DNA from: Rhodococcus qingshengii
Lineage (GTDB): Bacteria; Actinomycetota; Actinomycetes; Mycobacteriales; Mycobacteriaceae
Direction of reading: 5' to 3'
Length of the DNA: 64,000 bases
NCBI RefSeq assembly: GCF_021025955.1
Contig: NZ_JAJNCL010000007.1
Coordinates: 1-64,000 of the forward strand
Part shown: one piece after another, positions 3,953 to 24,401 of the stretch
Layout of the letters: each line of letters starts with the position of its first letter
Position numbering within the stretch: position 1 is the stretch's first letter
Translations under genes and position numbers: made by a program
The notes under the pieces: model-generated
The model's input: the letters and a program-made list of their open reading frames with translations, nothing else
What the model was told of the DNA's origin: nothing
Database searches by the model: none

Positions 3953-6471
3953 GTACTCCGGTCAAACCAGCAAAGCGCAACGGGGCCAAGCACCCCGCTT
4001 CCGATCATTCGACGGCCGATCATTCGGTTGCCGACGACGGCAAGTTCTTCGGCAAACCGATTCCGCGCGAGGAAGATACGCGTCTGCTCAGCGGTCAGGG
4101 GCGGTATCTCGACGATCTGGGTCACAACGCGCTGATCGCGGCATTCGTCAGGTCGCCGCATGCACATGCGCGAATCATCGACATCGACATCGATCAGGCA
4201 CTGGAAGTGCCTGGCGTACATGCCATCTACACCTACGAAGATCTCCTGGCCGACACCCCGGAGATGGCGGAGAACTTGCCACTGCTCATTCCGCATCCGG
4301 GAATCATCGCTCCGCGTAACGGGTACCCCCTTGCAAAGGACGAGGTGAACCACGTCGGAGAAGCCATCGCCATGGTGGTCGCCGACAATCGGTACATCGC
4401 CGAGGATGCGTGCGCGAAGATCGACGTCACGTACGAGACACTGAAGCCGGTAGTGGGAATCGACGTCGCCCGCACTGCCGACAATGCCGTTCACACTGAC
4501 GTTCCGGACAACATCGCCGCTCATCTGCAGCACGGGTTCGGTGATCCGGATGCCGAACTTGCGGCCGCGCCGCACCGACTGACGCTGGATCTCGAAATCG
4601 AGCGTTCGGCATCCATGCCGATGGAGGGCAAGGGTGTCTACGCACGCTGGGACGGCGACGAGAACACCCTCACGTTCTGGACCTCCACTCAGACGTCCAC
4701 CTCCGCCCGCGCCGCCATTGCCGCGCGATTGGGTATGGCGCTGAACAAGGTTCACTGCATCGCTCCTGACGTAGGCGGTGGATTCGGTGTCAAGATCGTC
4801 CATCCGTGGCCCGAAGAAGTGATGATCACGTGGGCCGCTCGACGCCTCGGCCAGGCCGGCATCTCCTGTGAGGTGAAGTGGGTCGAGGATCGCCGTGAGC
4901 ACTTCATCTCGAGCGCACACGAGCGTGGACAGATCCAGAAGATCGACATCGGATTCGACGACGAGGGCCGTCTGTTGGCTTTCGACTTCACGTTCTGGCA
5001 CGACAACGGCGCGTACCTGCCGTACGGGATCATCGTCATGATCAACACCGCGACGCAGGTTCTCGGGCCGTACAAGCCGAAGTCGTTCCGGGTCAACGCC
5101 TATTCGCTGTACACCAACACAGTCATCGTGACCCCGTACCGAGGCGCCGGACGTCCGCAGGCCGTGTTCGCGATGGAGCGATCAATGGACGCCATCGCCA
5201 AGTACCTGAACAAGGACAAGATCGCGGTCCGCGAGGCGAACTTCATTCGTCCCGAGGACATGCCGTACGACTTCGGTCTGATGTTCCAGGACGGACGCCC
5301 GTTGATCTACGACACCGGTGACTACCAGGCCGGCATCGACAAGCTCAAGAAGCTCATCGACTGGGACGGATTTCCCGAGTACCAGAAGAAGGCTCGCGCC
5401 GAGGGGCGGAGTGTCGGCATCGGCATCGGCGCGTACGTCGAGGGAACCGGTCCCGGACCCTACGAGGGCGCACACGTTGTGGTCGAGACGTCCGGAAAGG
5501 TCAAGGCGGCAACGGGCTTGACGACGCAGGGCCAGGGTCACCAGACAGCGTTCGCCCAGATCGTTGCAGACGATCTCGGAGTCAAGGTCTCCGACGTCGA
5601 GATCGTCACCGGTGACACTCGCCGGTTCGGTTATGCCGTCGGAACTTTCGCCTCACGTGGCGCGGTCATGTCGGGTTCGGCTTTCCACGTCGCGGCGCAG
5701 ATGGTCGCGGAGAAAGCGAAGAAGATCGCGTCCGGAATCTTGAATCTGCCGGAAGGCGAACTGGAACTCCAGGGTGGTCACGTGTGCAAACTCGGCACCG
5801 AGCCCGGAGTGGAAGGTACTTCTGTGCCGCTGAGTGTTGTTGCCGTTCTGTCGAACCCGCTACGATATGCGTTCGACCGTGAGTCGAAGCTGGCTACCGG
5901 TTTTGCCAAGACCGACACGGACATGTCGAAGCCGCCGATTCCCGAGGGCGAGCAGCCCGGTCTGGAAGCCACCGGCTACTACTCGCCGCCCAGTTCGACT
6001 TTCGCTTCGGGAGTGCACGCGGCGATCGTCGAAACCGATCCCGTCACAGCCGAGATCACGGTCCGTCGTTACGTCGTCATCCACGACTGCGGCAACGTGA
6101 TCAATCCGCGCATCGTCGAAGGCCAGGTCATGGGCGCCGTCGCGCAAGGTATCGGCGGCGCACTCTACGAACGAATCGTCTACGACGAGCACGGGCAGAT
6201 GCTCAACGCGTCGTACATGGACTTCTTGATGCCGTTTGTCACGGAGATGCCGGATTCACTCGAGATGGATCACACCGTCACGCCGTCGGGGCTCAACCCA
6301 CTCGGTATGAAGGGCGCCGGCGAGGCCGGTGTGATCCCGACCAGCGCCGTCATCGCGGCCGCCATCGAGGATGCCGAAGGAATTTCGATCACGTCCATGC
6401 CCATTTCACCGTCCGAACTGTTCGAACTTCGACTCGCACATGCGGGTTCGTCATCAGAGGAGAATGCATGA
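3949..6471 (+). CDS. Molybdenum hydroxylase large subunit, form II CoxL type (aldehyde oxidase/xanthine dehydrogenase family)
   Basis: An 840-residue molybdopterin-binding catalytic subunit. The active-site loop reads TPYRGAGRP (about residues 395-403). True aerobic CO dehydrogenases (form I) have AYRCSFR with a copper-binding Cys, whereas AYRGAGR-type loops define form II enzymes, so CO oxidation is unlikely. DVGGGFGVK and KGAGEAG near residues 785-792, with the catalytic Glu, are the expected molybdenum-site motifs. The family hydroxylates aldehydes or N-heterocycles. The start overlaps the small-subunit stop by ATGA, and its own stop overlaps the CoxG-like gene the same way, indicating translational coupling. 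There is a disordered N-terminal extension of about 35 residues. The neighbouring NCS2 permease suggests a purine- or pyrimidine-like substrate, by inference only. Confidence 0.93.
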   Translation: MSTPVKPAKRNGAKHPASDHSTADHSVADDGKFFGKPIPREEDTRLLSGQGRYLDDLGHNALIAAFVRSPHAHARIIDIDIDQALEVPGVHAIYTYEDLLADTPEMAENLPLLIPHPGIIAPRNGYPLAKDEVNHVGEAIAMVVADNRYIAEDACAKIDVTYETLKPVVGIDVARTADNAVHTDVPDNIAAHLQHGFGDPDAELAAAPHRLTLDLEIERSASMPMEGKGVYARWDGDENTLTFWTSTQTSTSARAAIAARLGMALNKVHCIAPDVGGGFGVKIVHPWPEEVMITWAARRLGQAGISCEVKWVEDRREHFISSAHERGQIQKIDIGFDDEGRLLAFDFTFWHDNGAYLPYGIIVMINTATQVLGPYKPKSFRVNAYSLYTNTVIVTPYRGAGRPQAVFAMERSMDAIAKYLNKDKIAVREANFIRPEDMPYDFGLMFQDGRPLIYDTGDYQAGIDKLKKLIDWDGFPEYQKKARAEGRSVGIGIGAYVEGTGPGPYEGAHVVVETSGKVKAATGLTTQGQGHQTAFAQIVADDLGVKVSDVEIVTGDTRRFGYAVGTFASRGAVMSGSAFHVAAQMVAEKAKKIASGILNLPEGELELQGGHVCKLGTEPGVEGTSVPLSVVAVLSNPLRYAFDRESKLATGFAKTDTDMSKPPIPEGEQPGLEATGYYSPPSSTFASGVHAAIVETDPVTAEITVRRYVVIHDCGNVINPRIVEGQVMGAVAQGIGGALYERIVYDEHGQMLNASYMDFLMPFVTEMPDSLEMDHTVTPSGLNPLGMKGAGEAGVIPTSAVIAAAIEDAEGISITSMPISPSELFELRLAHAGSSSEENA

Positions 6472-7139
6472 GAATCGCCGGCACCGCGCAGCTGACGGCA
6501 CCTCGAGAAGAGGTCTACGACAAGCTCCAGGACGGTCGTGTACTGGCCGCGACCATTCCCGGTGTGCAGTCGCTCGAGCAGCTCACGGACAATCACTACA
6601 AGCTCTCGATCATGGCAGGAGTCGCGTCGATCAAGGGCGTCTACGACGGTGAAGTTGTTCTTTCGCAACAAAATCGGCCCAATTCGTTTGTCATGACGGC
6701 TTCGGGCGCTGGTGCTCCAGGCACGGTGAAGGCGGACGTCACGGTCACGTTGACGGAGAACGAGGGTGGCACGCTGCTTTCGTACGACGCCGACGCGGTA
6801 GTCGGCGGGATGGTCGGCGGCGTCGGACAGCGGATGATCACCGGTGTCGCCAAGAAGATGGCCGGGGTGTTCTTCAAGAGCATCGACGGCGTCATTGCCA
6901 ACGGCATCCCCGAGAAGGTGACTGCCGCCGTGGCGGCGGCAATCCCGGCAGCGTCGGTCGAGGCGGTGCCGGTAGTTTCCGGAGCTGTCGAGGCACCGAC
7001 GGTTCTTCCGGCCGGTGTACCGACAGCGGGTGGCGCCGATGCTCGCACGGTGATGGTCAGCGCCGTCGTCGGCGCGGCCATTGCTTTGTCAGGTGTTGCT
7101 ATAGGCGGATTCCTGGCGCGTTCTGGGTGTCGCGAGTAG
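6468..7139 (+). CDS. CoxG-like SRPBCC protein with C-terminal membrane anchor
   Basis: The first 150 residues match the CoxG (carbon monoxide dehydrogenase subunit G) branch of the SRPBCC/START fold: the opening MRIAGTAQLTAPREEVYDKL and the later GGMVGGVGQRMITGVAKKM are characteristic. The C-terminus ends in one hydrophobic segment (around VSAVVGAAIALSGVAIGG) after an Ala/Pro/Val-rich linker. In Oligotropha CoxG helps attach the enzyme to the membrane; here it may do so for the upstream hydroxylase. It overlaps coxL by ATGA and is the last gene before a strong terminator. Confidence 0.88.
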   Translation: MRIAGTAQLTAPREEVYDKLQDGRVLAATIPGVQSLEQLTDNHYKLSIMAGVASIKGVYDGEVVLSQQNRPNSFVMTASGAGAPGTVKADVTVTLTENEGGTLLSYDADAVVGGMVGGVGQRMITGVAKKMAGVFFKSIDGVIANGIPEKVTAAVAAAIPAASVEAVPVVSGAVEAPTVLPAGVPTAGGADARTVMVSAVVGAAIALSGVAIGGFLARSGCRE

Positions 7140-13360: not shown

Positions 13361-14170
13361 CTACCCGACGGATGTCACCACCTTCGACTGCTGGATCGAC
13401 GTCAACACTCTCGTGCGGGCCTCGATGAACAGTGGGTCCGCTTTCGTGGTCAGTTGATCTCGAGCACCGGTCAGAGGAACGTCGACGATGTCCTGCATCA
13501 ATGCCGGAGTTCCGCCGAGGACGACCACTCGATCGGACAGGTACACCGATTCGTCGACGTCGTGGGTGACCAGGAGGACGGTGATGCCAAGATCACGCTG
13601 AAGGGTGAGCAGCAGGTCTTCGAGTTCCGCGCGGGTCTGCGCATCGACCGACGCAAAGGGTTCGTCCATGAGAAGTACCTGCGGTCGATAGGCCAGAGCG
13701 CGAGCTATCGCCACTCTCTGCTGCATTCCGCCGGACAACTGCCAAGGGTAGGAACGCGCAGCACCTTCCAGACCGACGACGGCGAGTGCCTCGGTTACCC
13801 TCTCGTTCTGAACCTTGCGTGCCAGGCCGTTGCCCCGCAGCGGCAGGCGAATGTTCTCGCCTACTCGAAGCCAAGGCATCAGTGTGCGTCCGTAATCTTG
13901 CGACACGAGCGCAAGAGTGGCGGGCGGAGCGTCGATCGCGATCCCAGCGATGCGGACCTCACCCGTAGTCGGCTTCTGTAAACCGGCGATGCAACGAATC
14001 AGCGTGCTCTTGCCGATTCCGGAATGTCCGACGATGCAGACGATTTCTCCCGATGCAACCGAAAGATCGATCCCGCGAAGCACTTCGCGGCCGGTAGATC
14101 CGCCGTAGGTCACCCCGAGGCCGTTCAGTTCGACTGCGGGAGTGGATGCCGCAGATTCTGTGGATGACAT
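13361..14170 (-). CDS. ABC transporter ATP-binding protein, SsuB/TauB/NitT type
   Basis: About 269 residues with Walker A VGHSGIGKSTLIR, Q-loop LVSQDYGRT, signature LSGGMQQRVAIARALA and Walker B VLLMDEPFASVDAQTR. The start at 14170 (MSSTESAAST) is chosen because AAAGGAAA precedes it and because it overlaps the stop of the upstream permease (TGATG). It energises the two permeases encoded upstream; members of this subfamily carry nitrate, sulfonates, taurine or pyrimidine precursors. It is the last gene of a four-gene minus-strand operon. Confidence 0.92.
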   Translation of the reverse strand: MSSTESAASTPAVELNGLGVTYGGSTGREVLRGIDLSVASGEIVCIVGHSGIGKSTLIRCIAGLQKPTTGEVRIAGIAIDAPPATLALVSQDYGRTLMPWLRVGENIRLPLRGNGLARKVQNERVTEALAVVGLEGAARSYPWQLSGGMQQRVAIARALAYRPQVLLMDEPFASVDAQTRAELEDLLLTLQRDLGITVLLVTHDVDESVYLSDRVVVLGGTPALMQDIVDVPLTGARDQLTTKADPLFIEARTRVLTSIQQSKVVTSVG

Positions 14171-14958
14171 CAGTTTCCTTTCACTGCGAGTGCGCCGTGG
14201 GTCCGAGGCTGCCATTTGAGCAGCCAGCGCTCGATCACGCCGTATCCGAGGTTGAGCACGTACCCGATGATTCCCAGAAGGAGAATTCCGGACCACATGT
14301 CTGCGATCGCGAAGGTCTGTTGCGCGACGATCACGAAGTGACCGATTCCTGCAGTGGAGACGTACATTTCGCTGCCGACCATGATGACGACACCGATCGC
14401 GAGACTGGTGCGGATGCCGACCGTTATCTGAGGCATCGCTCCGGGGAGGAGTACCTGCGTGACCAGCAGGGGCGTTCGGATCCGATAGCTGCGCGCCACC
14501 AATCGAATACTCGGGTCGATGGAGCGTATGCCGTCGAGGGTGTTGAGGAGTATCGGCCAGACCGCGCCGAAGGCGATGGCGGCGACGTTGCCCGAAGAAC
14601 CTGTGCCGAAGACGATGAACAGGGCCGGCAGTACGGCCAGTGCGGGTATTGCACGGAAGAACTGGAGAAACGGATCGGCGATGTCTGCAGCCAGTGGAAA
14701 CAGCGCAAGAAGAAGGCCGACCCCGATGCCGACCACCAGTGCTACGGCGAGACCGAAGCCGAGATTGGTCAGGCTCGGCACGACATCGCGTGCAAATCCT
14801 GACCCGAACCAGTTGTCCACAAACGCTTTCCAGATTCGTGACAGCGGCGGAAAGTACGGCGACTTACTCGACGCGGATCCGAAGTACCACACTCCGACGA
14901 TCAAGATCGGCAACCACAGCTCCCACGCGAGGAGTCGAATCCCGGACATCATTCTCAC
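14170..14958 (-). CDS. ABC transporter permease (SsuC/TauC-like), second copy in operon
   Basis: About 262 residues with six hydrophobic segments and the permease EAA loop (GAVWPILLNTLDGIRSIDPS ... LLPGAMPQITVGIRTSLAIG). GTG at 14958 overlaps the stop of the preceding permease (GTGA) and has an AGGAGG about 6 nt upstream; in-frame ATG codons 6 and 9 nt further in are alternatives. Two different permeases in one operon indicate a heterodimeric channel. Confidence 0.9.
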   Translation of the reverse strand: MRMMSGIRLLAWELWLPILIVGVWYFGSASSKSPYFPPLSRIWKAFVDNWFGSGFARDVVPSLTNLGFGLAVALVVGIGVGLLLALFPLAADIADPFLQFFRAIPALAVLPALFIVFGTGSSGNVAAIAFGAVWPILLNTLDGIRSIDPSIRLVARSYRIRTPLLVTQVLLPGAMPQITVGIRTSLAIGVVIMVGSEMYVSTAGIGHFVIVAQQTFAIADMWSGILLLGIIGYVLNLGYGVIERWLLKWQPRTHGALAVKGN

Positions 14959-15746
14959 GTCGTCATCCTCCTCGGGATGTAATGCCAAGCAAGTAAACGA
15001 TTCTCGATTGCCATCACAGCGAAGGCGAGCAGCATGCCGAGTACTCCGGCGACGATGATCAGTGCGAACATTCGATCAGGGACGGATTGGCTCAGCAGGA
15101 TTTCCTTGCCGACTCCGGGAACGCCGGCGATCAGTTCGGCGCCGATGGTCAGCAGCAAACTCAGTGTTGCCGAGATACGAATTCCCGTGAAGATGTACGG
15201 CATCGACGCGGGTGCAACTACGAGAGCGAGTCTGCGCCACAGGGGAAGCCGGAAGGATCGTGCGGTGGAGAGTAGTTCCGGATCGACGTTGCGGACACCG
15301 TGGATGGTCTGGAGCAGGATCGGCCACACGCTTACCGCCACGATCAGCGCAACCGCCATACGTTGTGTCGGGCCCATGATCAACAGAAAGAGCGGGATGA
15401 TCGCGAGCGGAGGCACGGTCCGGCAGAAGTCGATGACGAAGCGCGAAGAGACTGTCAGGAACGGGTGCGCGGCGAGCAGCAGTCCTGCCGGGATTCCGAT
15501 GGCCAGGCACAGAGCCAATCCGATGGCGGTTGTGGTCAAGGTCTGTCCCAACGACGCCCACAGCGAAGAGGTACCGAGTTCGTCCACGAACGCCACTGCC
15601 ACGTCACTGAACTTCGGCACACCTTTGACGTTCTCGTCGCCCAGCATTCCGAATACCTGCCAGGCGGCTGCCAACGCGAAGAGCGTCAGCAGCCGACCGA
15701 GCAGGACCTGCCTGCGGCGAGTCTGCAGGGTTATCAAGGCGGACAA
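14955..15746 (-). CDS. ABC transporter permease (SsuC/TauC-like)
   Basis: A protein of 263 residues with six predicted membrane segments and the conserved loop VSVWPILLQTIHGVRNVDPE followed by LVVAPASMPYIFTGIRISAT. The only start that suits the frame is TTG at 15746, 1 nt after the stop of the binding-protein gene, so it probably relies on translational coupling. It forms the membrane channel together with the next permease. Confidence 0.88.
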   Translation of the reverse strand: MSALITLQTRRRQVLLGRLLTLFALAAAWQVFGMLGDENVKGVPKFSDVAVAFVDELGTSSLWASLGQTLTTTAIGLALCLAIGIPAGLLLAAHPFLTVSSRFVIDFCRTVPPLAIIPLFLLIMGPTQRMAVALIVAVSVWPILLQTIHGVRNVDPELLSTARSFRLPLWRRLALVVAPASMPYIFTGIRISATLSLLLTIGAELIAGVPGVGKEILLSQSVPDRMFALIIVAGVLGMLLAFAVMAIENRLLAWHYIPRRMTT

Positions 15747-15747
15747 C

Positions 15748-16752
15748 TTAATTGGCCGGAGTCAGCAAGGAATCGCTGTCAACCGACTCCGTCAGTACCC
15801 CGTACTTGACCAGCAGTTCGATCTCCGTGCCGAGAGCGCCCGGTTCCACTACTGCGACGAACTGAGGATTCTTGCTGTTGGCCAGCATTTCGAGCGGAAT
15901 CTTGGCTTGTGTCGAGAGTGCGGCCTTGACCGCGCCCGGATTCTGATTGGCGTAGTCAACTGATTTGGCAAGCGCCGTACGGAATTTAGCGAGTGAGTCC
16001 GGGTTCGCATTGACAAACGATTCCGAAGCGACCAGCGAGGTCCCCGGTACACCGGGTGCGGCCAAGGGGAAGGGGTGGCCGAGGATCTTCAGCCCCGAGT
16101 CGGTTGCCTTGCTCAGGAACGGATCGATGAGGAATGCCGCGTCGGCACCGCCAGTGGAAACCAGGTCGCCGAGGTTGGGCATGGGCGCCTGAATGAACGA
16201 GATCTTGTCGGCTGCTCCACCAGATTTCTCCACCGCGGCAGAGATGACCGCCTCGCTGACGGACTTCAAACCGCTGATCGCAACGGTTTTGCCTTCGAGG
16301 TCACGGAAGCCACTGATGGAACTGTCCTTGGCGACAACGAGGCCGGACTGGTCGACGTCGTCACTCGCGGCAAAATTCGTGAGTCCTCCGACGATGGTGA
16401 CGGGCATGTTCTGGCTGCGTGCCTGAATGGCGGCAGCGGCAGTTGTGGCTGCCATATCTGCATTTCCGCTGAGCAGCAACGGAATTTGAGCCGAGGAGCT
16501 GGCCCCGCCCTCGACGAGCTGAATGTCGAGTCCCTCAGTGGTGAAGAACCCCTGTTCCATGCCCAGCCAGATCGGTGCGAAGTCGGCGATCGGTTGAGGA
16601 GCGATGCGAATCGTCGTGGTCTGCGTGCCCCCATCGTCGGAGGCTGTGGCGTCGCTCGAGCAGCCGGTCAGTGCCAATGCCGCGGTCGCGACCGCCGCTA
16701 TGGCAACAACTCTGAACCGTGGTGTCGACCGAAGGGTATATCCAACCGTCAT
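15748..16752 (-). CDS. Lipoprotein substrate-binding protein of the NMT1/SsuA family
   Basis: A protein of 334 residues. The N-terminus is a lipoprotein signal: basic start, hydrophobic VVAIAAVATAALALTGC, with Cys as the lipidation residue. The mature part follows the SsuA/TauA/NMT1 fold (IRIAPQPIADFAPIWLGMEQGF..). Start ATG at 16752 with GAGAGG 9 nt upstream; an open frame runs further upstream but crosses the promoter and the IclR gene. It captures the ligand outside the membrane for the following permeases and ATPase. The ligand is unknown; nitrate, sulfonate or pyrimidine/hydantoin-like compounds are all used by relatives. Confidence 0.9.
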   Translation of the reverse strand: MTVGYTLRSTPRFRVVAIAAVATAALALTGCSSDATASDDGGTQTTTIRIAPQPIADFAPIWLGMEQGFFTTEGLDIQLVEGGASSSAQIPLLLSGNADMAATTAAAAIQARSQNMPVTIVGGLTNFAASDDVDQSGLVVAKDSSISGFRDLEGKTVAISGLKSVSEAVISAAVEKSGGAADKISFIQAPMPNLGDLVSTGGADAAFLIDPFLSKATDSGLKILGHPFPLAAPGVPGTSLVASESFVNANPDSLAKFRTALAKSVDYANQNPGAVKAALSTQAKIPLEMLANSKNPQFVAVVEPGALGTEIELLVKYGVLTESVDSDSLLTPAN

Positions 16753-16854
16753 GTCCGAAAACCTCTCGCTGGGAAAGATAGGACTTCCTTGCCGGGAGTC
16801 CGGTGGGAAGGTGAAGACGCTCAAAGAATTCCGTACGCCGGAATGATTGTTGTG

Positions 16855-16883
16855 ACTATAGTAATTTCCTAGGCGAATGCCAA
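16855..16883 (-). promoter_or_regulatory. Sigma70-type promoter of the ABC transporter operon
   Basis: On the minus strand a -35 TTGGCA (16883-16878) is separated by exactly 17 nt from a -10 TATAGT (16860-16855), about 100 bp before the binding-protein start. It sits in the 195-bp gap shared with the divergent IclR gene, so IclR control at this promoter is likely. Confidence 0.7.
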
Positions 16884-16947
16884 GGGTTTTCCAAGAACAC
16901 GAGATTTCGGATCGCCGGGTACTCACACGGCGCCGGGAGGGGATCGG

Positions 16948-17730
16948 ATGACGAAGGGTTCTGCGTCCGCCGTCGACAAAGCGCTGGATCTGCTCGAGGC
17001 CATCGCGCGCTCGACCACGCCGATGAAGCTCAGTGAACTGGCAGAAGAAGTCGGGATGCTCCGCCCGACTGCGCACCGAGTGCTCGGAGAACTCGCGAAC
17101 CGTGGGTGGGTCTTCCGCTACGACGGTCGCTATCTCCCCGGACCGGCTGCGCTGCAGGTTTCTCACGAAGCGGCGGCGCATTCCTTGGCGGCCTTGTGCG
17201 ATCCGACCATGCAGACGCTGTCCGAGAGCACGGACATGATGGTGAATCTGCAGGTTCTCGAGAGCGGCGGGACGCGAATCATCGCGGCGCTGCGTCCCGA
17301 GCGACTCAAGATGATCACTCGGATGCTCGGGGATCTGCTTCCGCCACACCGGTTCGCGGGTCCGCTCGCGTTGGTGGCGGCGCTCGAGGACAACACCCGG
17401 GCGCCCTACCTGGCAATGGTGGAGAAGAGCGGCTATCCAATGGAAGGCCCCACCGGCTTTCTCGCCGACATCGCCGAGACGCAGAAAACCGGATTCGCCG
17501 TTGTCCACAAACGATCCCAGGACATCATCGGTTCGGTCTCGCGTGCAGTGTCTTCCCGCAAGGGATCTCCGCTCTGCGCGTTGACGGTGATCGGGTTCGA
17601 TACCGACTTCGATGCGAAAACGACGCGAATGGTCGAAGAACATCTGCTGCGGGCGACCGATGAAGTGCAGCAACTCCTCACCGACCACACTTCGGGCAAG
17701 CGCCCGTCCGACACAGGAGAAGAAGGATGA
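16948..17730 (+). CDS. IclR-family transcriptional regulator
   Basis: A protein of 260 residues. The N-terminal winged helix (SAVDKALDLLEAIARSTTPM, then LSELAEEVGMLRPTAHRVL) and C-terminal effector domain (AALRPERLKMITRMLGDLLPPH ... GFAVVHKRSQDIIGSVSRAV) are typical IclR. GGGAGGGG precedes the ATG. It is divergent from the ABC transporter operon and overlaps the following hydrolase gene by ATGA, so it probably controls both the transporter and the hydrolase-RidA pair. Confidence 0.92.
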   Translation: MTKGSASAVDKALDLLEAIARSTTPMKLSELAEEVGMLRPTAHRVLGELANRGWVFRYDGRYLPGPAALQVSHEAAAHSLAALCDPTMQTLSESTDMMVNLQVLESGGTRIIAALRPERLKMITRMLGDLLPPHRFAGPLALVAALEDNTRAPYLAMVEKSGYPMEGPTGFLADIAETQKTGFAVVHKRSQDIIGSVSRAVSSRKGSPLCALTVIGFDTDFDAKTTRMVEEHLLRATDEVQQLLTDHTSGKRPSDTGEEG

Positions 17731-18539
17731 TTTCACGGACCGAGGGCTTCATCACCGTCGCAGACGGCGAACGGGTCTGGTACGAGACTGCCGGCGAGGG
17801 CCCGGATCTGATTCTCACGCATGGTCTCGGCGGCAACGCCGCGGTCTGGTACCAACAGGTACCGTACTTCGCTCAGCACTATCGGGTAATCAGCTGGGAT
17901 CAGCGAGGATTCGGACGGTCCACCAACGAGAATGGCAACCACGGCCCGGTTGCGGCAGTCTCGGATCTGATCGAAATCATGAACCTGTTGGAGGTCGATC
18001 GAGCGCACGTGGTCGGCCAGTCGATGGGCGGTTGGGCCGCATTGGGGACCGCGATCGCTGTTCCGGACCGGGTGGAGTCGGTAGTCCTGGCCTGCACGAC
18101 CGGCGGCATTCCCGTCGGCTTCGGGCCGGACATCGCACCTCCGCTCACCGCAGCGCCGGTCACGGCGCGGCCCCTGGGGGAACACCCCGCTGTGGGCGGA
18201 CGGTTGCCGAGCTTGGACATGGCGAGGGCATATCTGTATCAAGCTCTCGGCACCTTCGGCCATCGCCCACCTGACACCGAGTTCTTCCGAATTCTGAAGG
18301 CCCACAACTATTTGCCGGCCGATCTTGCGGCGGTGGCTGCACCGGTTCTCCTGATCGCGGGTGAGCTGGACGATTTGATGACACCCGAGCGGATTCGCAG
18401 CGCCGCCGAGTTCCTGCCTCACGCAGAAGTGGTCGAGCTTGCCGACCGCGGTCACTCCCCCTATTTCGAGGACCCACACGCGTGGAACGAGTTGGTGGCG
18501 CACTTCCTGGCCGACGTTCGTGCCCGTCCAGTGCGCTGA
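17727..18539 (+). CDS. Alpha/beta-fold hydrolase
   Basis: A protein of 270 residues. Features seen: the oxyanion-hole LTHGLGGNAAVW, the nucleophile elbow VVGQSMGGWAALG with Ser near residue 96, an acid in LLIAGELDDLMTPER, and the His in LADRGHSPYFEDP. The family includes 3-oxoadipate enol-lactonases, RutD-like aminoacrylate hydrolases and C-C hydrolases. It is coupled by ATGA to the IclR gene and followed by a RidA protein, a pairing also found as RutC/RutD in pyrimidine degradation; no RutA or RutB is nearby, so the exact pathway is open. Confidence 0.9.
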   Translation: MISRTEGFITVADGERVWYETAGEGPDLILTHGLGGNAAVWYQQVPYFAQHYRVISWDQRGFGRSTNENGNHGPVAAVSDLIEIMNLLEVDRAHVVGQSMGGWAALGTAIAVPDRVESVVLACTTGGIPVGFGPDIAPPLTAAPVTARPLGEHPAVGGRLPSLDMARAYLYQALGTFGHRPPDTEFFRILKAHNYLPADLAAVAAPVLLIAGELDDLMTPERIRSAAEFLPHAEVVELADRGHSPYFEDPHAWNELVAHFLADVRARPVR

Positions 18540-18582
18540 AACCGCGCACTCGCCAAACATATTCCACTTCCGAGGAGACCTA

Positions 18583-18969
18583 ATGGATTCATCTCAGACC
18601 GTCGAGTTCATCCCACCCGCTTTCGACACACCGTTCTCCACCGGAGTGCGTGTCGGAGATGTTCTGTATCTGTCGGGTCAGATCGGCATGCTCCCAGACG
18701 GGACCTTGGCCGACGGCTTCGAAGCGCAAGCCCGCCAGACCATGGAGAACATTGTCGCTTCGCTGATCGCCTACGGCTCGGGCGTCGAAGCGATCTTCAA
18801 ATGCACTGTCATGCTTGACGACATGTCTCGCTGGCAGGAGTTCAACAAGGTCTATCTCGAGTACTTCCCGGCATCGAGACTGCCGGCACGCAGCGCGTTC
18901 GGAACAGACGGACTGGCGCTGGGTGCGCACATGGAAGTCGAATGCATGGCGTACACCCCGCGGGTCTGA
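18583..18969 (+). CDS. RidA-family (YjgF/YER057c/UK114) protein
   Basis: A protein of 128 residues with the RidA core: PFSTGVRVGDVLYLSGQIGMLPDG, FEAQARQTMENIVASL, FKCTVMLDDMSRWQEFNKVY, and FPASRLPARSAFGTDGLALG with the conserved Arg that hydrolyses enamines/imines. The second half of the usual Rid signature, EVECMAYTP, closes the protein. Start ATG at 18583 has GAGGAG at 18572-18577. It would remove reactive enamine or imine products, perhaps made by the co-transcribed hydrolase pathway. It is convergent with the retron RT gene, 11 bp away. Confidence 0.92.
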   Translation: MDSSQTVEFIPPAFDTPFSTGVRVGDVLYLSGQIGMLPDGTLADGFEAQARQTMENIVASLIAYGSGVEAIFKCTVMLDDMSRWQEFNKVYLEYFPASRLPARSAFGTDGLALGAHMEVECMAYTPRV

Positions 18970-18980
18970 TTTCGGGGGCG

Positions 18981-20231
18981 TCAGTCGTCCCAATTCACAC
19001 GTTCGGCTATGCGCAGCAATGTGCGTCGGCGCGTAGTGCTGGTTTCGCCGATGTGCGCGATCCGGCCGTGGATGTGAGCCCGGAAATTCTCGATACCATC
19101 CCGATTCTGTTCCTGTGCAGAGGTATTCGCAGCATTGTGAAGCAGGGCGCGCAGACGATCGTAGTCGTCACGCGGATACGACGGTTGGTCGTTGATCACC
19201 AGCCCGGTGAGGTGTTGGCGTCGATGAGGGCGCATCACCTTGGTCTTTCGCGGATGGACGGCAAACCCTTCGTCCCTGGCGATCTGCTCGACCGTCCACA
19301 GGAGGGTGCCGACATCTGCCACTTCGATTCCGGAGAAGGCGAGGTCGTCGGCGTATCGGGTGTAGGTGAGCCAGTTCGCTTGTGCGAGAACGCTCAACCG
19401 GATGTCGAGTTTGCGCGCGACGAGATTCGCCAGTGCAGGCGAAGTGGGCGCGCCTTGCGGAAGATGCGCGGTGCGTAGCTGTGATGCCTGTTTATACGGT
19501 AGGCCGCGCAGGGTATCGGCAGGTGTTGCAACCGTGCACAATCCGGTGAGAACTCCTGCCACTGCGGGTGGATAGCCGAGGGCGGCGAAGATCGCGTGGA
19601 CTCGCTCACCGGTGATCGACGGGAAGAACTGTGCGAGGTCCACACCGATCACGATTTCCGACTGTGCGTGTGGCGCTGCAAAGGTCAGCGGACTTCGACC
19701 ACGGACAAACCCGTGGGCCGCGTCGTGTGCGGGCACCTGGTCGAGTATGCGGCGCAATATCTTCCGTTGGATTTCGCGCAACCGGGGTTTCGGTACCTCG
19801 AGGAGGCGAGCGCCGGCCTTCTTGCTGATCTGCATTGGCCGGTAGTGGCGTAGCGGTAGGGGTTTCGTACGCAGCCACTCCCCGCGGTCGGCAAACCACT
19901 CGAGTTCGGAAATCGTCAGATCCAGTGAACGCGCCAGATCTGCACTGGTGTTGTAACGGGGGACGTCGAACCGCCACACCGAGGATTCGTTGGTGTCCAG
20001 TGAGACCGGGACTGGTCGAAGCCGCGGAAGTTCGCGTAGCAATCGGTACAGGGTTTGTGGTTCGAACGGTGGGGCCGGCATGAGGTCGAGCACTCGGACG
20101 GCGAGCGATGTCGCTGAGACACCGTGGACCGTTCCGAATGCCTCTTCGAGCCCACCGAGAGTCCATGGAGCATCGGCAGCAGCAACTGCCAGGCGCCGCG
20201 CCAACTCGGGATCGAGCTCGAAGTCACGCAT
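18981..20231 (-). CDS. Retron-type reverse transcriptase
   Basis: A 416-residue protein starting at ATG 20231, 13 nt after the end of the msr-msd RNA gene. RT motifs in order: VPKPRLREIQ (146-155), AHGFVRGRS (172-180), FAAPH (184-188, in place of the retron NAxxH), catalytic DLAQFFPSI (198-206), LPQGAPTSPALANL (257-270), YADD (293-296), KTKVM (329-333), and LTGL (341-344), equivalent to the retron VTG motif that binds the msr. Residues 1-95 are an N-terminal extension without recognised motifs; 97-130 (ADLARSLDLTISELEWFADR) is the conserved entry to retron RTs. Resemblance to the longer, N-terminally extended RTs of myxobacterial retrons is my impression. No separate effector gene is adjacent. 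It should synthesise msDNA from the upstream RNA and, by analogy with other retrons, act in phage defence. Confidence 0.92.
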   Translation of the reverse strand: MRDFELDPELARRLAVAAADAPWTLGGLEEAFGTVHGVSATSLAVRVLDLMPAPPFEPQTLYRLLRELPRLRPVPVSLDTNESSVWRFDVPRYNTSADLARSLDLTISELEWFADRGEWLRTKPLPLRHYRPMQISKKAGARLLEVPKPRLREIQRKILRRILDQVPAHDAAHGFVRGRSPLTFAAPHAQSEIVIGVDLAQFFPSITGERVHAIFAALGYPPAVAGVLTGLCTVATPADTLRGLPYKQASQLRTAHLPQGAPTSPALANLVARKLDIRLSVLAQANWLTYTRYADDLAFSGIEVADVGTLLWTVEQIARDEGFAVHPRKTKVMRPHRRQHLTGLVINDQPSYPRDDYDRLRALLHNAANTSAQEQNRDGIENFRAHIHGRIAHIGETSTTRRRTLLRIAERVNWDD

Positions 20232-20244
20232 GATTCGAGCCCGG

Positions 20245-20407
20245 GATGCGGCGGCGTGGGGTGACCAAATCCTTTGTCCGGAGCGGCGGCAAGCACGCGG
20301 AGCGTGCCGAGCGCCGGTGGACGCAGTATCCAACTCTTCTGGCCGACCCAGGGGTTACCCCTGAGACTGGTCGCGTGGACCAACTCTCACCCACGCGCCG
20401 CCGCATC
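20245..20407 (-). ncRNA. Retron msr-msd RNA gene
   Basis: Read on the minus strand: a1 arm at 20407-20386 and a2 arm at 20266-20245 are complementary. GATGCGGCGGCG pairs with CGCCGCCGCATC without a gap, then a 2-nt bulge and further pairs with CCCA. After a1 come two msr hairpins: 20388-20363 (about 10 bp around loop CACGC) and 20362-20350 (AGGGG, TAA, CCCCT). The msd is a long interrupted hairpin at 20322-20276 with arms GTCC/GGAC, CGGCG/CGCCG and GCACGC/GCGTGC around a 3-nt TCC loop. The size of about 163 nt, the order a1-msr-msd-a2 and the position just before the RT match known retrons. The branching G should lie at the a1/msr junction (about 20392-20386). Confidence 0.85.
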
Positions 20408-20412
20408 TCTTC

Positions 20413-20441
20413 ACAATGGCAGACCGTCCGGTATCTGTCAC
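20413..20441 (-). promoter_or_regulatory. Candidate promoter of the retron
   Basis: Minus strand GTGACA (20441-20436), 17 nt, CATTGT (20418-20413). A transcript starting 6-8 nt later would begin at the edge of the a1 arm, as retron RNAs require. The hexamers are weak, so this is tentative; read-through from the upstream operon is also possible because its last stop is only 31 nt before the -35. Confidence 0.4.
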
Positions 20442-20471
20442 GTGTGAAGCTGATCTGTCAGGTGTGGGTCA

Positions 20472-21413
20472 TCAGATCGAGGAACGATCCGAACCGACGA
20501 ACTCGCTGATCCACGGCACGACTGCTTCGCGGACGGCGACCGCCTTCGGCAGCAGTCCGTTGCTCAGCAGGAGATCGGCCGCCCGCTGCTGCTCGTCGAG
20601 GAACTCGTCGGTGATCGGGTTGACGCCGAAAGGACGTCCGCGCAGTGCAGCTTCCCAGGCATCGAGGCTTGCGGACCCACCACGCTTCTCGACGTCGTCG
20701 ACGAAGATCTGTGCGGCTTCGCGGGGATTGGCTTCGATCCACGCATCGGATTCCTGCAGAGCCTCGATGATCGCCTGAAGGGCCTCGGGATTGGTCTCCG
20801 CGAAATCGCGCCGGGTGAACCACAGTGAGGGGTGGCTGAAGAGCCCGTCGGTGGCGATCAGCGTGCGGAGCTCGTGGTTCGCTTCGATGTCCGTCAGCCC
20901 CGGGTACGCACCTACCCAGGCATCGATGGTGCCGTCGACGAGATCTGCTCCACCACCGCGCACGTCGGTATCGACGGGGACGATGTCGGACCAGGTCAGC
21001 CCCGCCTGGTCCAAGGCGAACAACAGAAGTGTGGTCTGCCACGATCCGTGCGCGATGCCGACTCGCTTGCCGCGCAGGTCCTCTACCGTGTTGATCTCGG
21101 ACTCTGCTTTGACTACCAGGCGCCCGTTCTCCACGCGGGGGCCGGAAATTCCGATGTAGACGAGATCGCGGCCCTGAGCCAATCCGGTGACGGGCGGCGT
21201 GAATCCGGTTCCGATCACGTCGTATCCGCCCTCCTCGAACAGCCAGTCCGAGTGCAGGGTCGGCAAGGCGTTCTCCGGGTTGACTGCGGGCTTGGCGGGA
21301 AGCTCGCGCAGGTCCACCCACTCGACATCCGGGAGACGATGTTCGAGGATTCCGGTGTGGCGCAGAACGAACAGTGAATTGTTGTGTGGGAAGTATCCGA
21401 CGCGAACGGTCAT
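20472..21413 (-). CDS. Substrate-binding-protein-like (SsuA/NMT1 fold) without signal peptide
   Basis: A protein of 313 residues that begins directly with the mature SBP strand (MTVRVGYFPHNNSLFVLRHT) and shows the DLRGKRVGIAHGSWQTTLL and DAWVGAYPG segments of SsuA/NMT1-type proteins. There is no hydrophobic leader and no lipobox, and the sequence contains no Cys, so it is neither a lipoprotein nor a Cys-dependent desulfinase like the DszB-type gene of this operon. It may be a cytoplasmic binding protein or an enzyme that reuses the fold. It is the last gene of the organosulfur operon, 41 bp after the aldolase-like gene. Confidence 0.75.
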   Translation of the reverse strand: MTVRVGYFPHNNSLFVLRHTGILEHRLPDVEWVDLRELPAKPAVNPENALPTLHSDWLFEEGGYDVIGTGFTPPVTGLAQGRDLVYIGISGPRVENGRLVVKAESEINTVEDLRGKRVGIAHGSWQTTLLLFALDQAGLTWSDIVPVDTDVRGGGADLVDGTIDAWVGAYPGLTDIEANHELRTLIATDGLFSHPSLWFTRRDFAETNPEALQAIIEALQESDAWIEANPREAAQIFVDDVEKRGGSASLDAWEAALRGRPFGVNPITDEFLDEQQRAADLLLSNGLLPKAVAVREAVVPWISEFVGSDRSSI

Positions 21414-21454
21414 GAGATCTACGGTTTCCTGTTCTGAATCAGTGATGGAGGTGG

Positions 21455-22162
21455 CTAGATGAGGCCTCGTCGGCGCGCCTCGTCGGCGAGCCCGCTACGG
21501 CTCCACTGGACGGCGAGGTTGGACGGATCGAATTCGACCGAACCGCCCAGGGATTCGGCGATCGCCTGGAACTGTGCGCCTTCCTCGAGGAGGACGACGA
21601 ACTTCGCGAGGTCGAGCAATCCGCTGCGGCCGATGACGTTGACCCCGCCGTTGGCTTCGAAGATCGCCACCAGATCGGGATCGTGTTCGAGACGCTCTAG
21701 AATGAAATCGCCGGCAGAACGGGACCGATCGATGTGCGGCGGAATCTCTCGGGAGAGCGTCAGCCTCTGCGAAGCCGCATAGCGGATGGGTAGCGTCCGA
21801 TGAGTCTGTGCCCAACCGCCGAGCCACGGAGTGTGGATGTGGACGACGCTGGTGATTTCCGGATGTTGACGGAAGACGGACGCGTAGCCGGTGACGAAAC
21901 CGGCCGATCCGTTGCCGGACAGCACTTCTCCGTCGAACGTAGCGACCACCGGTGACACCGACGGATCGTCCGCCCACGGTCCCGGATCATTCAGGGCGAC
22001 TGCGATTTCGGTACCGGGCACGCGTTCGACGAAGTTGACGGTCCCGTTGGCTGCAACCGTTCCGGTCTTACGGAAGACGTCGAATGCCTTGTCTGCTACT
22101 TTGCGCGCTTCCTCGACGAATGCTGCAGTATCGGCTTCGAGTCGAGTTTCGGTGGTGGTCAT
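21455..22162 (-). CDS. Class II aldolase/adducin-family protein
   Basis: A protein of 235 residues with the class II aldolase/adducin fold. The metal-binding HIHTPW (about 112-117) is present, as are the N-terminal phosphate-loop-like ANGTVNFVERVPG and late ANGGVNVIGRSGLLDL. The relatives are L-fuculose- and ribulose-phosphate aldolases/epimerases and several decarboxylases. Its start overlaps the stop of the SsuD-like gene by ATGA. What carbon-carbon step it catalyses in this operon is unknown; cleavage of the carbon skeleton left after desulfonation is a possible role. Confidence 0.85.
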   Translation of the reverse strand: MTTTETRLEADTAAFVEEARKVADKAFDVFRKTGTVAANGTVNFVERVPGTEIAVALNDPGPWADDPSVSPVVATFDGEVLSGNGSAGFVTGYASVFRQHPEITSVVHIHTPWLGGWAQTHRTLPIRYAASQRLTLSREIPPHIDRSRSAGDFILERLEHDPDLVAIFEANGGVNVIGRSGLLDLAKFVVLLEEGAQFQAIAESLGGSVEFDPSNLAVQWSRSGLADEARRRGLI

Positions 22163-23313
22163 CGAGTCTCCAGTCCAGAAGGTGTGATCGGGGTGCGCTG
22201 CAGGAGGGGAAGAACTTCTTCGCCGACGCGGTATGCCTCTTCGAGATGCGGGTTGCCGGCGAGGATGAAGGCGTCGACGCCCAGCTCGCGCAGCTCGTCG
22301 AGTCTTTCGGCGACCTGCTCGTAGCTACCGACCAGTCCGAACGCCGGGCCTCCGCGGATCAGACTGAAACCGCACCACACGTTGGGCTGCACCTCCAGAT
22401 CCCGGTAGCCGGTGATGTGTTCGGGTACCCAGCCTTTGATGCGGGCGGCTCCTACCGAATCGCCCTGCGCTGCTCGGTCGGCGGCGCCCTTGTCGACGAA
22501 GGCCCAACCCTTCTCGATCTCGGCCCACGCAGCTTCTTCGGTGCGCCGGGCTACGACGTCGATGCGTACGGCGAACTTCGGGGTGCGGCCCAGCTTGGCC
22601 GAATTCTCCCGCACACCGTCGATCTTGGCTCTGAGATCGGCGTACGGCTCGAGCCAGGAAAGGTAGTAGTCGGAGTGCAGTCCGGCGGCGGCGACGGCTG
22701 CTGCCGAAGATCCGGAGAAGTACACCTCGGGAAACGGCTGGCCGGGAAGCCCGGGTGGCAGTGCAGCGCCGTGGGTTTGGAAGAAGCGACCGTCGAAGTC
22801 GAAAGGTTCGCCGTCCCACACACCCTTGAGCACATCGAGGAACTCGGATGTCCTGGTGTAGCGATCGTCGTGGTCGACCTTGTCGCCCCACCACAGCTGA
22901 GGCGCTCCGCCTCCACCACTGATGATGTTGTAAACCAGACGTCCGCCGGTTGCGCGCTGCAGACTGGCCGACATCCGCGCGGCCTGGACCGGGTGAAGGA
23001 ACCCCGGTTGGAACGCAACCATGAAACGGTACGTGGTGGTCTCGGCGGCCAACGCTGCGGCGGTCGCCCACGGATCCTCGGTCATCGGGAAGGACGGCAG
23101 CAGCCCACCGAGGAAGCCGGCGGATTCGGAAGCCTTTGCCACCGCGGCCATGTGGTCGATGTAGCTGTATCCGTCCAACTCGCCTCCCCGGATCGCGGGA
23201 GCGATGTTGCCCGGCCCGTATCCACCGGCGTCACCGCGGTTGTAGCGACGCGGTGTACGAAGCGACGCGTGGTCGCCCTCCATTCCGATCCGCCAGTAGA
23301 AATCTATGCTCAT
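22159..23313 (-). CDS. SsuD-like FMNH2-dependent sulfonate monooxygenase (luciferase-like family)
   Basis: A protein of 384 residues. The start MSIDFYWRIG at 23313 overlaps the preceding stop by ATGA. Alkanesulfonate monooxygenase hallmarks: MVAFQPGFLHPVQAARMSAS, GRLVYNIISGGG, HDDRYTRTSEFLDVLKGVW, and PEVYFSGSSAAAVAAAG. Such enzymes use reduced flavin and O2 to split the C-S bond of sulfonates or to oxidise sulfones, releasing sulfite or a sulfinate. No flavin reductase (SsuE/DszD type) is encoded in the operon, so one must come from elsewhere. Confidence 0.9.
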   Translation of the reverse strand: MSIDFYWRIGMEGDHASLRTPRRYNRGDAGGYGPGNIAPAIRGGELDGYSYIDHMAAVAKASESAGFLGGLLPSFPMTEDPWATAAALAAETTTYRFMVAFQPGFLHPVQAARMSASLQRATGGRLVYNIISGGGGAPQLWWGDKVDHDDRYTRTSEFLDVLKGVWDGEPFDFDGRFFQTHGAALPPGLPGQPFPEVYFSGSSAAAVAAAGLHSDYYLSWLEPYADLRAKIDGVRENSAKLGRTPKFAVRIDVVARRTEEAAWAEIEKGWAFVDKGAADRAAQGDSVGAARIKGWVPEHITGYRDLEVQPNVWCGFSLIRGGPAFGLVGSYEQVAERLDELRELGVDAFILAGNPHLEEAYRVGEEVLPLLQRTPITPSGLETR

Positions 23314-24401
23314 GCGGTGGCCTTCTCTTCCTTGCGGATCCGACCCTCGGGATCGACCAGGTGCAGGAGATGCTCGCCCGCCCGGTGCAACTCTTCGATG
23401 TGTGGCCGACCGGACAGGACGAAACCGTCCACGCCGAGATCGCGATACGACGACAATCGCTGTGCCACTTCCTGGTAGCTTCCGACGAGGCCGATGCTGT
23501 GCTCGTAGCCGATGCGGTCGAATCCGGACCACAGGATGCCGCCCCGATCGATCTCGAGTGCAGCGGAATCGGATTCTCTCAGTTGCCGTTCGACGCGAGC
23601 CCAGGCTTCGTCGGCTGTTTCCCTCGCGATGATCGGGATGCGTAGGACCTTCTCGACGGTCCTGCCGAGTTCGGATGCTCGGTCGTCGAGGGTGGTGATC
23701 CGTGTCGACAACTCGTCACCGGCAAGGGTGAACTGATGGACATCGGCATGGTGGGCCGAGAGTTCCAGAGCTTCCGATGAGTCTCCGGTCAGATGTACTC
23801 GGGGAAAACGGAGTCCCGACAAGATGCCTCGGAATCCGCCGCCGAGTACGTCGTAGTATTCGCCGTCGAAGTCGTAACCCGTGCCGCCGAATCCGCCGGG
23901 GAGAATCTGTTCCTCGTTCCACACACCGCGTGCGACGGTCAGGAACTCCGCCGCGCGCGCGTAGCGGTCGGCTCCTTGAATCACGTCTCCGCGAGCAGCG
24001 GCGTCTTCGGGGTCCGTCTCTACCTTCACTCGCCATTCGAGACGACTTGCCGACAGGCGCTGAAGTGTGGCCGACATTTTGGCGGCGTAGACGGGGGTGC
24101 CGAATGTGGGGTGAAACTCCACGACCACTCGCGAATGACGCGTCTGACGTAGGGCGGCGGCAGCAACGATCCAGGATTCTTCGCCATTCGGATCGTACGG
24201 TGCGACAACGCCGTCGACGCCCGACAGTTCGGCTGCGAGAACGATCTGTGCCAACTCGTCGAAGGGCCCGAAGTTTCCGGGGCGAACATCGGTCGCGACG
24301 GTAGTCGGTCGCTGCGGCCCGAAGCCGCCGCGACTGTTCAGGGCGGCCACGGCCCGGCGTCCGTCACCGCGCGAGGGCAGCTCCCAGTAGACGTCCGTCA
24401 T
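23310..24401 (-). CDS. Luciferase-like flavin monooxygenase (SsuD/DszA relative)
   Basis: A protein of 363 residues of the LLM flavin family: VVEFHPTFGTPVYAAKMSATLQRLS, DRYARAAEFLTVARGVW, FPRVHLTGDSSEALELSAHHAD, and ARVERQLRESDS are equivalents of the SsuD segments. It is clearly a diverged paralogue of the next gene and is coupled on both sides by ATGA overlaps. Two LLM monooxygenases plus a desulfinase parallels DszA/DszC/DszB logic (stepwise S-oxidation, then desulfination), but the substrate is unknown. Confidence 0.88.
   Translation of the reverse strand: MTDVYWELPSRGDGRRAVAALNSRGGFGPQRPTTVATDVRPGNFGPFDELAQIVLAAELSGVDGVVAPYDPNGEESWIVAAAALRQTRHSRVVVEFHPTFGTPVYAAKMSATLQRLSASRLEWRVKVETDPEDAAARGDVIQGADRYARAAEFLTVARGVWNEEQILPGGFGGTGYDFDGEYYDVLGGGFRGILSGLRFPRVHLTGDSSEALELSAHHADVHQFTLAGDELSTRITTLDDRASELGRTVEKVLRIPIIARETADEAWARVERQLRESDSAALEIDRGGILWSGFDRIGYEHSIGLVGSYQEVAQRLSSYRDLGVDGFVLSGRPHIEELHRAGEHLLHLVDPEGRIRKEEKATA

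Follow-up and report, generated by a model that had tools for sequence, protein, structure and literature searches.

A retron-class reverse transcriptase and its covarying msr-msd RNA in Rhodococcus qingshengii, from an actinobacterial family with no commonly linked effector

The window, that is, the whole 64,000-nt stretch of Rhodococcus qingshengii DNA analysed here (assembly GCF_021025955.1, contig NZ_JAJNCL010000007.1, positions 1 to 64,000), carries on its minus strand a reverse transcriptase (RT) gene preceded by a structured RNA with the layout of a retron msr-msd RNA (Table 1). The RT reading frame extends from an ATG at 20231 to a stop codon at 18981, and its 416-aa product contains the four motifs AHGFVRGRS, FAAPH, YADD and LTGL that a sequence-only reading of this DNA had listed. 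The frame is also open upstream, as far as a TTG at 20333; the ATG at 20231, which lies 3' of the a2 arm of the RNA, is the likely start. In the 6.48-Mb genome the window RT is the only protein matched by Pfam RVT_1. Its four named close relatives all belong to the genus: Rhodococcus sp. IEGM 1409 (98%), R. erythropolis NBRC 15567 (95%), Rhodococcus sp. P-2 (94%) and R. globerulus NBRC 14531 (92%). When the window RT was compared with six close relatives, dN/dS was 0.057-0.084 in all six cases, which indicates that the protein is kept under strong purifying selection.

Table 1. Positions of the retron features in the window.
Feature	Position	Strand	Remarks
Retron reverse transcriptase (RT)	18981-20231	minus	416 aa, ATG start, stop included
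msr-msd RNA, whole	20245-20407	minus	matched by model R1 at 20242-20409, 170 bits; seeds include the window RNA
a1 arm, forming the 5' strand of the long end helix	20387-20406	minus	alignment columns 4-23
a2 arm, forming the 3' strand of the long end helix	20246-20264	minus	alignment columns 163-182
Candidate branching G directly after a1	20386	minus	G in 30/30 aligned RNAs; putative role
msr hairpin 1	20366-20384	minus	alignment structure
msr hairpin 2, CUCAGGGG-UAA-CCCCUGGG	20347-20365	minus	sequence nearly invariant
msd hairpin, template stem	20276-20322	minus	template predicted from ~20266 to ~20325
msd hairpin tip, GCACGCUCCGCGUGC	20293-20307	minus	strongly conserved
Extended -10 promoter-like element TGCCATTGT	20413-20421	minus	ends 3 nt before aligned RNA column 1
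Possible -35 element GTGACA	20436-20441	minus	17-nt spacer to the -10 hexamer; identified by eye

The RNA proposed from the letters of this DNA was recovered with all its parts, namely a1 and a2 arms with 12 consecutive base pairs, two msr hairpins and an msd hairpin. The end helix joins 5'-GATGCGGCGGCG (20407-20396) to CGCCGCCGCATC (20256-20245), and both msr hairpins are short-looped in the fold of the window RNA. Taken as a single sequence, the region folds at -90 kcal/mol for 192 nt (z -2.5), and 5 of 200 shuffled sequences fold equally well. Since this energy is only moderately unusual, the case for the RNA must rest on comparison between loci. The sequence of the msd tip recurs, with at most one mismatch, at seven places in its own genome, including the retron itself and one other exact copy, while its reversed control occurs at five, so that these counts give no sign of a chromosomal target set.

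The comparison was made on 30 loci (L002-L031), the best RT matches of a survey of 151 genomes; seven of them are the window and its close relatives. A homologous RNA could be aligned 5' of the RT in every one, and RNAalifold returned a single structure composed of the a1/a2 helix, the two msr hairpins and the msd stem. To this structure three outer msd pairs (helix 6) were added by hand; they are paired in 86.7% of cells, show no double changes and are supported by conservation only. Over all 30 loci 94.5% of the pairing cells are paired, against a mean of 83.3% when the partners were shuffled (none of 500 shuffles was as high) and 34-53% when they were slid by 1-3 columns. Double changes occur in 24 of the 45 pairs and in 145 cells, where the shuffled controls average 15.6 pairs and 41.2 cells and none of 500 reaches the observed values. 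Helices 3, 5, 6, 7 and 8, which make up the msr hairpins and the msd stem, are paired in 87-100% of cells. Several short elements are invariant in all 30 RNAs: GAG after a1, CGUCC at the base of the msd stem and GGUC before a2. The core of msr hairpin 2, GGGG-YAA-CCCC, is present in 29, and the msd tip GCACGCUCCGCGUGC is identical in 17 and close in the others. Comparison across loci thus settles what energy alone cannot, and the RNA is judged to be real; conservation and covariation in related RT loci, whose absence the sequence-only reading had named as refuting, were both found.

The seed RNAs were also used to build a covariance model, R1, with which the window and 46 other loci were searched. 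With an E-value threshold of 0.01 it detected the RNA in 23 of 24 loci whose RT is confident (L036-L059; L056 was missed) and in none of the 22 loci with weak or broken RT matches (L060-L081), including the two pieces (L060 and L078) of an RT 45-46% identical to that of the window in genome G830. Two of 11 longer loci repeat earlier genomes; the other nine gave eight matches, L120 being reached at E 0.015. Beyond the 30 seeds, the RNA was therefore found in 31 of 33 independent confident-RT loci, L056 and L120 being the misses at E 0.01. A test that requires no alignment looked 5' of the RT for at least 12 consecutive Watson-Crick pairs whose arms are 130-230 nt apart. Such pairing was present in 22 of the 33 non-seed loci and absent from 11, as compared with 20 of 990 dinucleotide shuffles. 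In 12 R1 matches fitted to the model, double changes were seen at 33 of the 45 pairs, a figure that comes from an alignment biased towards the model.

Occurrence of the RNA is tied to that of the RT. Of the 151 genomes, among them the window's own, 55 gave an RT match and 41 an RNA match; all 41 RNAs lie in RT-positive genomes, one in each and adjoining the RT, and none was detected in the 96 genomes without RT. Thirteen of the 14 RT-positive genomes without RNA fall outside the family, and two (G034 and G096) have weak RT matches only. A second set of 397 genomes of the order, partly overlapping the first, gave RT matches in 107, some of them weak and to other RTs, and the RNA in 43, in every case beside the RT; it was found in none of the 290 RT-less genomes, and 64 of the 107 RT-positive ones were without it. 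These whole-genome searches used strict filters and scored no more than 18 or 7 candidates in each genome, and it is at that sensitivity that both the misses and the zeros hold. Nine genomes missed in this way did give an RNA match (E below 0.01) in searches confined to their loci; G093, G106, G108, G120 and G127 had been missed in both searches and G266, G289, G335 and G461 in the search of 397. Of 396 genomes of the phylum, 22 had an RT match, mostly weak, and in one genome beyond the order (G702) RT and RNA occur together. Five genomes (G014, G018, G023, G026 and G038) have an RT match that falls into two parts with the RNA still adjoining, which suggests broken copies or assembly breaks.

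As regards the RT itself, PADLOC's RT_other (582 bits) and RT_outgroup (549 bits) score best, with near full-length matches, and all 36 members of the RT family alignment match both. RT_outgroup is labelled retron, and neither model assigns an effector type. The next type model, the RT of retron type XIII, scores 335 bits, about 250 bits lower than the best; the window family differs from that type in that no common partner gene was found for it. PADLOC also includes RNA covariance models (PMC9252829). None of the six NCBIfam matches of the window RT reaches its curated cut-off, the best being retron_St85 with 177 of 235 bits. A profile of the 36 RTs searched against the PDB placed retron RTs first, with Ec86 at 3e-53, whereas the top match among chains bearing the name of a group II intron RT was found at 1.8e-12 and a chain labelled 'retron-type' at 1.5e-13. 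The latter chain is presumably of group II origin too. Judged by these profile comparisons, the window RT clearly belongs to the retron class. Assignment to the group II intron RTs or to the DRTs was also considered and rejected (group II model 52 bits and Drt2 29, versus 582 for the PADLOC retron model and 177 for NCBIfam St85).

Residues at the diagnostic positions, tallied as column counts over the alignment of 36 RTs, define the traits of the family. The Y[AG]DD active site is present in all 36. The region-X motif opens with F in 28 RTs and never with N; its second residue is A in 32, and the histidine is present in all. The sequence-only reading had remarked on FAAPH standing where retrons usually have NAxxH; the motif is there, and we read it as a family trait rather than an anomaly, since NAxxH is given for just 59% of retron-lineage RTs by Toro and Nisa-Martinez 2014 (PMC4244168). 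Region Y reads LTG in the window; across the family its first position is L in 29, V in 4, M in 2 and I in 1, its second T in 11 and A in 25, and its third G in 35. In the same study VTG accounts for 47% of retron RTs and I/L variants for 26% (PMC4244168). The lack of the N of NAxxH in all 36 RTs and of the T of VTG in 25 tells against the retron reading. Among solved retron RTs the closest to the family is that of retron Ec86 (Eco1), as judged from the profile search. We take the RNA of Ec86 to follow the same plan, with a1/a2 arms, msr hairpins, an msd stem and the RT downstream. In contrast to Ec86, the window family has no common linked effector, carries FAAPH in place of NAxxH and has in most members (33/36) an extra N-terminal region of about 90 residues. 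This region is unlikely to be an effector in general because some RNA-bearing members lack it (L043, L044, L047, L048 and L050, whose RTs measure 334-341 aa from the chosen starts). An AlphaFold model of the RT, made from five near-identical sequences, had a mean pLDDT of 41 and was too poor for use.

Covariation, the R1 matches, the linkage of RNA to RT and the alignment-free pairing together give strong support to the claim made at the outset, that of a complete retron composed of an RT and an identifiable msr-msd RNA. On the strength of the RT class, the covariation, the linkage and the purifying selection observed, we consider the locus very probably to be a functional retron of an actinobacterial family, a degree of confidence that applies to its being a retron. 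The accompanying view that such a retron is unusual in actinobacteria was overstated, given the RT matches in over a third of the first genome set and, some of them weak or to other RTs, in over a quarter of the order; surveys already describe putative retrons from actinobacteria (PMC6868368). The RT is already covered by PADLOC models and the retron fits a known kind. For the RNA there was no Rfam match, either at the gathering score or at E up to 1, and no description of this msr-msd RNA was found in the literature covered, the principal retron surveys lying outside that coverage.

The counterpoint to the retron reading is that, unlike most studied retrons, this family has no commonly linked effector. 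Neighbouring genes within about 9 kb on each side were clustered for 41 regions, of which 39 remained after two in which the RT was not called (L111 and L115). The gene caller was a simple one (at least 60 aa, codon-position G+C score) that may miss small genes, and at that resolution no gene family was common to the RT neighbourhoods of the 39 loci. The RT aside, no family recurs adjoining it in more than seven loci, and for families found in as many as nine loci the distances are scattered. A conserved effector adjoining the RT, as in a tripartite retron, was thus not found in these loci.

This bears directly on the alternative that the locus represents a conventional tripartite retron acting against phage, with its effector specified at some other site in the genome or by a local gene that differs between lineages, which we regard as the best placed of the rivals and yet as doubtful. 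Known retrons usually have an effector (PMC12548924), and the neighbours vary from locus to locus, leaving room for lineage-specific partners. One candidate is a protein of 138-139 aa encoded in L091 (10672-11091) and L092 (10710-11126), on the strand of the RT and 59 and 69 nt after it; the two copies are 59% identical, have no Pfam match and possibly represent a partner in that lineage only. Another is a HAD-like gene that starts 28 nt after the RT on a Tsukamurella plasmid. In the window, however, the downstream gene is convergent and RidA-like, 11 nt from the RT, and the gene upstream of the retron encodes a transporter binding protein. Only two of ten nearby window ORFs had PADLOC matches, an ABC transporter ATPase and the RidA-like protein; the former gave weak ATPase matches, one of which covers a 35-residue part of the model for the retron I-B ATPase. 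Beyond these 35 residues no retron effector was found among the ten. Nor do other loci point to a shared partner, as the six close downstream same-strand genes examined elsewhere comprise five with unrelated domains (PQQ-repeat, GST, Na/H exchanger, VTT-domain and Rrf2 regulator) and one domainless (that of L092).

Two features of the window neighbourhood may be recorded here. The RidA-like gene (18439-18969) has a partial PADLOC match to PD-T4-2_B, which probably reflects a shared RidA domain only. The retron is embedded in a stretch (13361-24401) that encodes luciferase-like monooxygenases, NMT1-type binding proteins, a permease and an ABC transporter ATPase, and that resembles a gene cluster for uptake and oxidation.

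Our own proposal for the function starts from the same negative result: because no common partner gene adjoins the RT, we favour a host protein as the partner. Transcribed from its own promoter, the RNA would begin near a1, and its a1 and a2 arms would pair and hold it closed. The RT would bind the two msr hairpins and, by homology with known retrons, prime synthesis from the 2'-OH of the invariant G after a1. Copying of the msd stem-loop over the predicted template would then yield a hairpin msDNA of roughly 60-80 nt, joined to the RNA. The resulting RT-msDNA complex would act with a host protein encoded elsewhere, sensing phage infection or DNA damage. This functional part is a guess, and defence with an unlinked or lineage-specific partner is more apt to be wrong than right.

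A quite different role, in which the host has co-opted a retron-derived system for DNA repair or the SOS response instead of phage defence, is brought to mind by the position of some family members behind a dnaE2-like gene. Such a gene lies upstream of the retron, on the same strand and within three genes or 1.5 kb, in 12 of 93 RT loci, and the 12 span two bacterial families. Seven of the 39 loci of the neighbourhood analysis have a protein of about 1100 aa within three genes upstream (L091, L092, L094, L095, L096, L103 and L104), and the polymerase lies within 1.5 kb in five of 54 further RT genomes (G066, G154, G160, G173 and G378). The one 1100-aa protein that was scanned has DNA polymerase III alpha domains. 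The name DnaE2 is our assumption from the protein length and from an ImuB-like gene nearby at L103. A SpoU-type methylase gene, of which one example was scanned, belongs to the cluster on the opposite side in five of the seven loci. Mapped onto the RT tree, the adjacency requires five changes, against a mean of 10.9 after shuffling, and well-supported branches force four of the five; six of the 50 rows (L004, L005, L006, L008, L036 and L037) were scored as non-adjacent without inspection. The strong purifying selection on the RT would also suit a role of this type. On the other side, 81 of the 93 loci, that of the window included, were not seen adjoining dnaE2, a count that takes in a few draft genomes with the two genes on separate contigs, and in 27 of the 54 further genomes a dnaE2 match was absent at the cut-off used. 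The window genome has its dnaE2 on another contig, not near the retron. Shared old gene order is the simpler reading of the adjacency and explains much of its clustering; as a pointer to function the adjacency is a lead only, and a takeover for repair or SOS appears unlikely.

To much the same low degree we entertain the idea of an actinobacterial retron lineage that lacks a dedicated effector and whose RT has relatives in Burkholderia; its RT and msDNA would be the whole mobile unit, working through a host factor. DNA damage or replication would be the sensed cue, as suggested by the conserved tip of the hairpin DNA together with the repeated position behind dnaE2.

The region between promoter and RT start was also compared across loci. 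A [TC]ANNNT element is found 3-5 nt ahead of the aligned RNA in 29 of 30 loci (L027 is the exception), and in 23 it is TG-extended, a pattern that occurs in 2.9% of random 34-nt windows. A scan of 18900-20600 with a stricter sigma-70 consensus for promoters, together with a terminator scan, found nothing. A promoter-like pattern at the same place in so many loci suggests that the RNA probably starts at or near a1. At the other end of the RNA, the ATG of the RT overlaps the aligned RNA in six Rhodococcus loci (L011-L014, L016 and L017), where the a1/a2 helix could consequently also affect RT translation. Elsewhere (L021, L028, L031, L038, L047, L049 and others) the inferred RT start is 20-59 nt from the RNA, two loci with a start over 300 nt away (L030 and L054) having been set aside as uncertain. 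The notion that the structured RNA is a leader regulating RT translation, with an end helix closing at or over the RT start and no msDNA, could appeal to the overlap and to a2 ending near the start codon, but it is very improbable, as the overlap is not kept, the whole retron layout is present with its free G after a1 and its msd stem, and the RT belongs to the retron class, in which the known members rely on an RNA of this kind.

For a large actinobacterial retron family, this work gives a covarying RNA model, and such retrons can be located in genomes, cloned and tested. The family offers a clean case of the question what a retron does without a toxin encoded beside its RT, and a native actinobacterial retron could help to make DNA inside Rhodococcus and related industrial hosts.

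More distant RTs were found in phages and in Burkholderia. Fourteen phage records have RT matches, all distant; the best of the ten listed is 38% identical over 53% of the protein. A Burkholderia 'reverse transcriptase family protein' is 46% identical to residues 89-415 of the window RT, and RTs 45-46% identical to that of the window lie on large Burkholderia replicons listed as plasmids (L122, L126 and L127). In B. pyrrocinia (L122, RT at 5683-7032) the RT likewise sits between annotated genes that are seemingly unrelated, none of them effector-like. R1 gave no match at L122, the one Burkholderia locus searched, and the stretch upstream of its RT folds no better than shuffles (z -0.9); a hairpin there, ACGGGGCUACCCCGU, resembles msr hairpin 2 (GGGG-CUA-CCCC).

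Within the actinobacteria, plasmid RT copies from Tsukamurella and Dietzia both have the RNA. The Dietzia copy (L124, 2854-4298; RNA 131 bits) is a retron of the same kind on a 46.8-kb plasmid, where it adjoins a mercury reductase gene and is followed, among annotated genes, by one for a transposase on the opposite strand; its location on this plasmid beside mercury reductase suggests that the unit can move.
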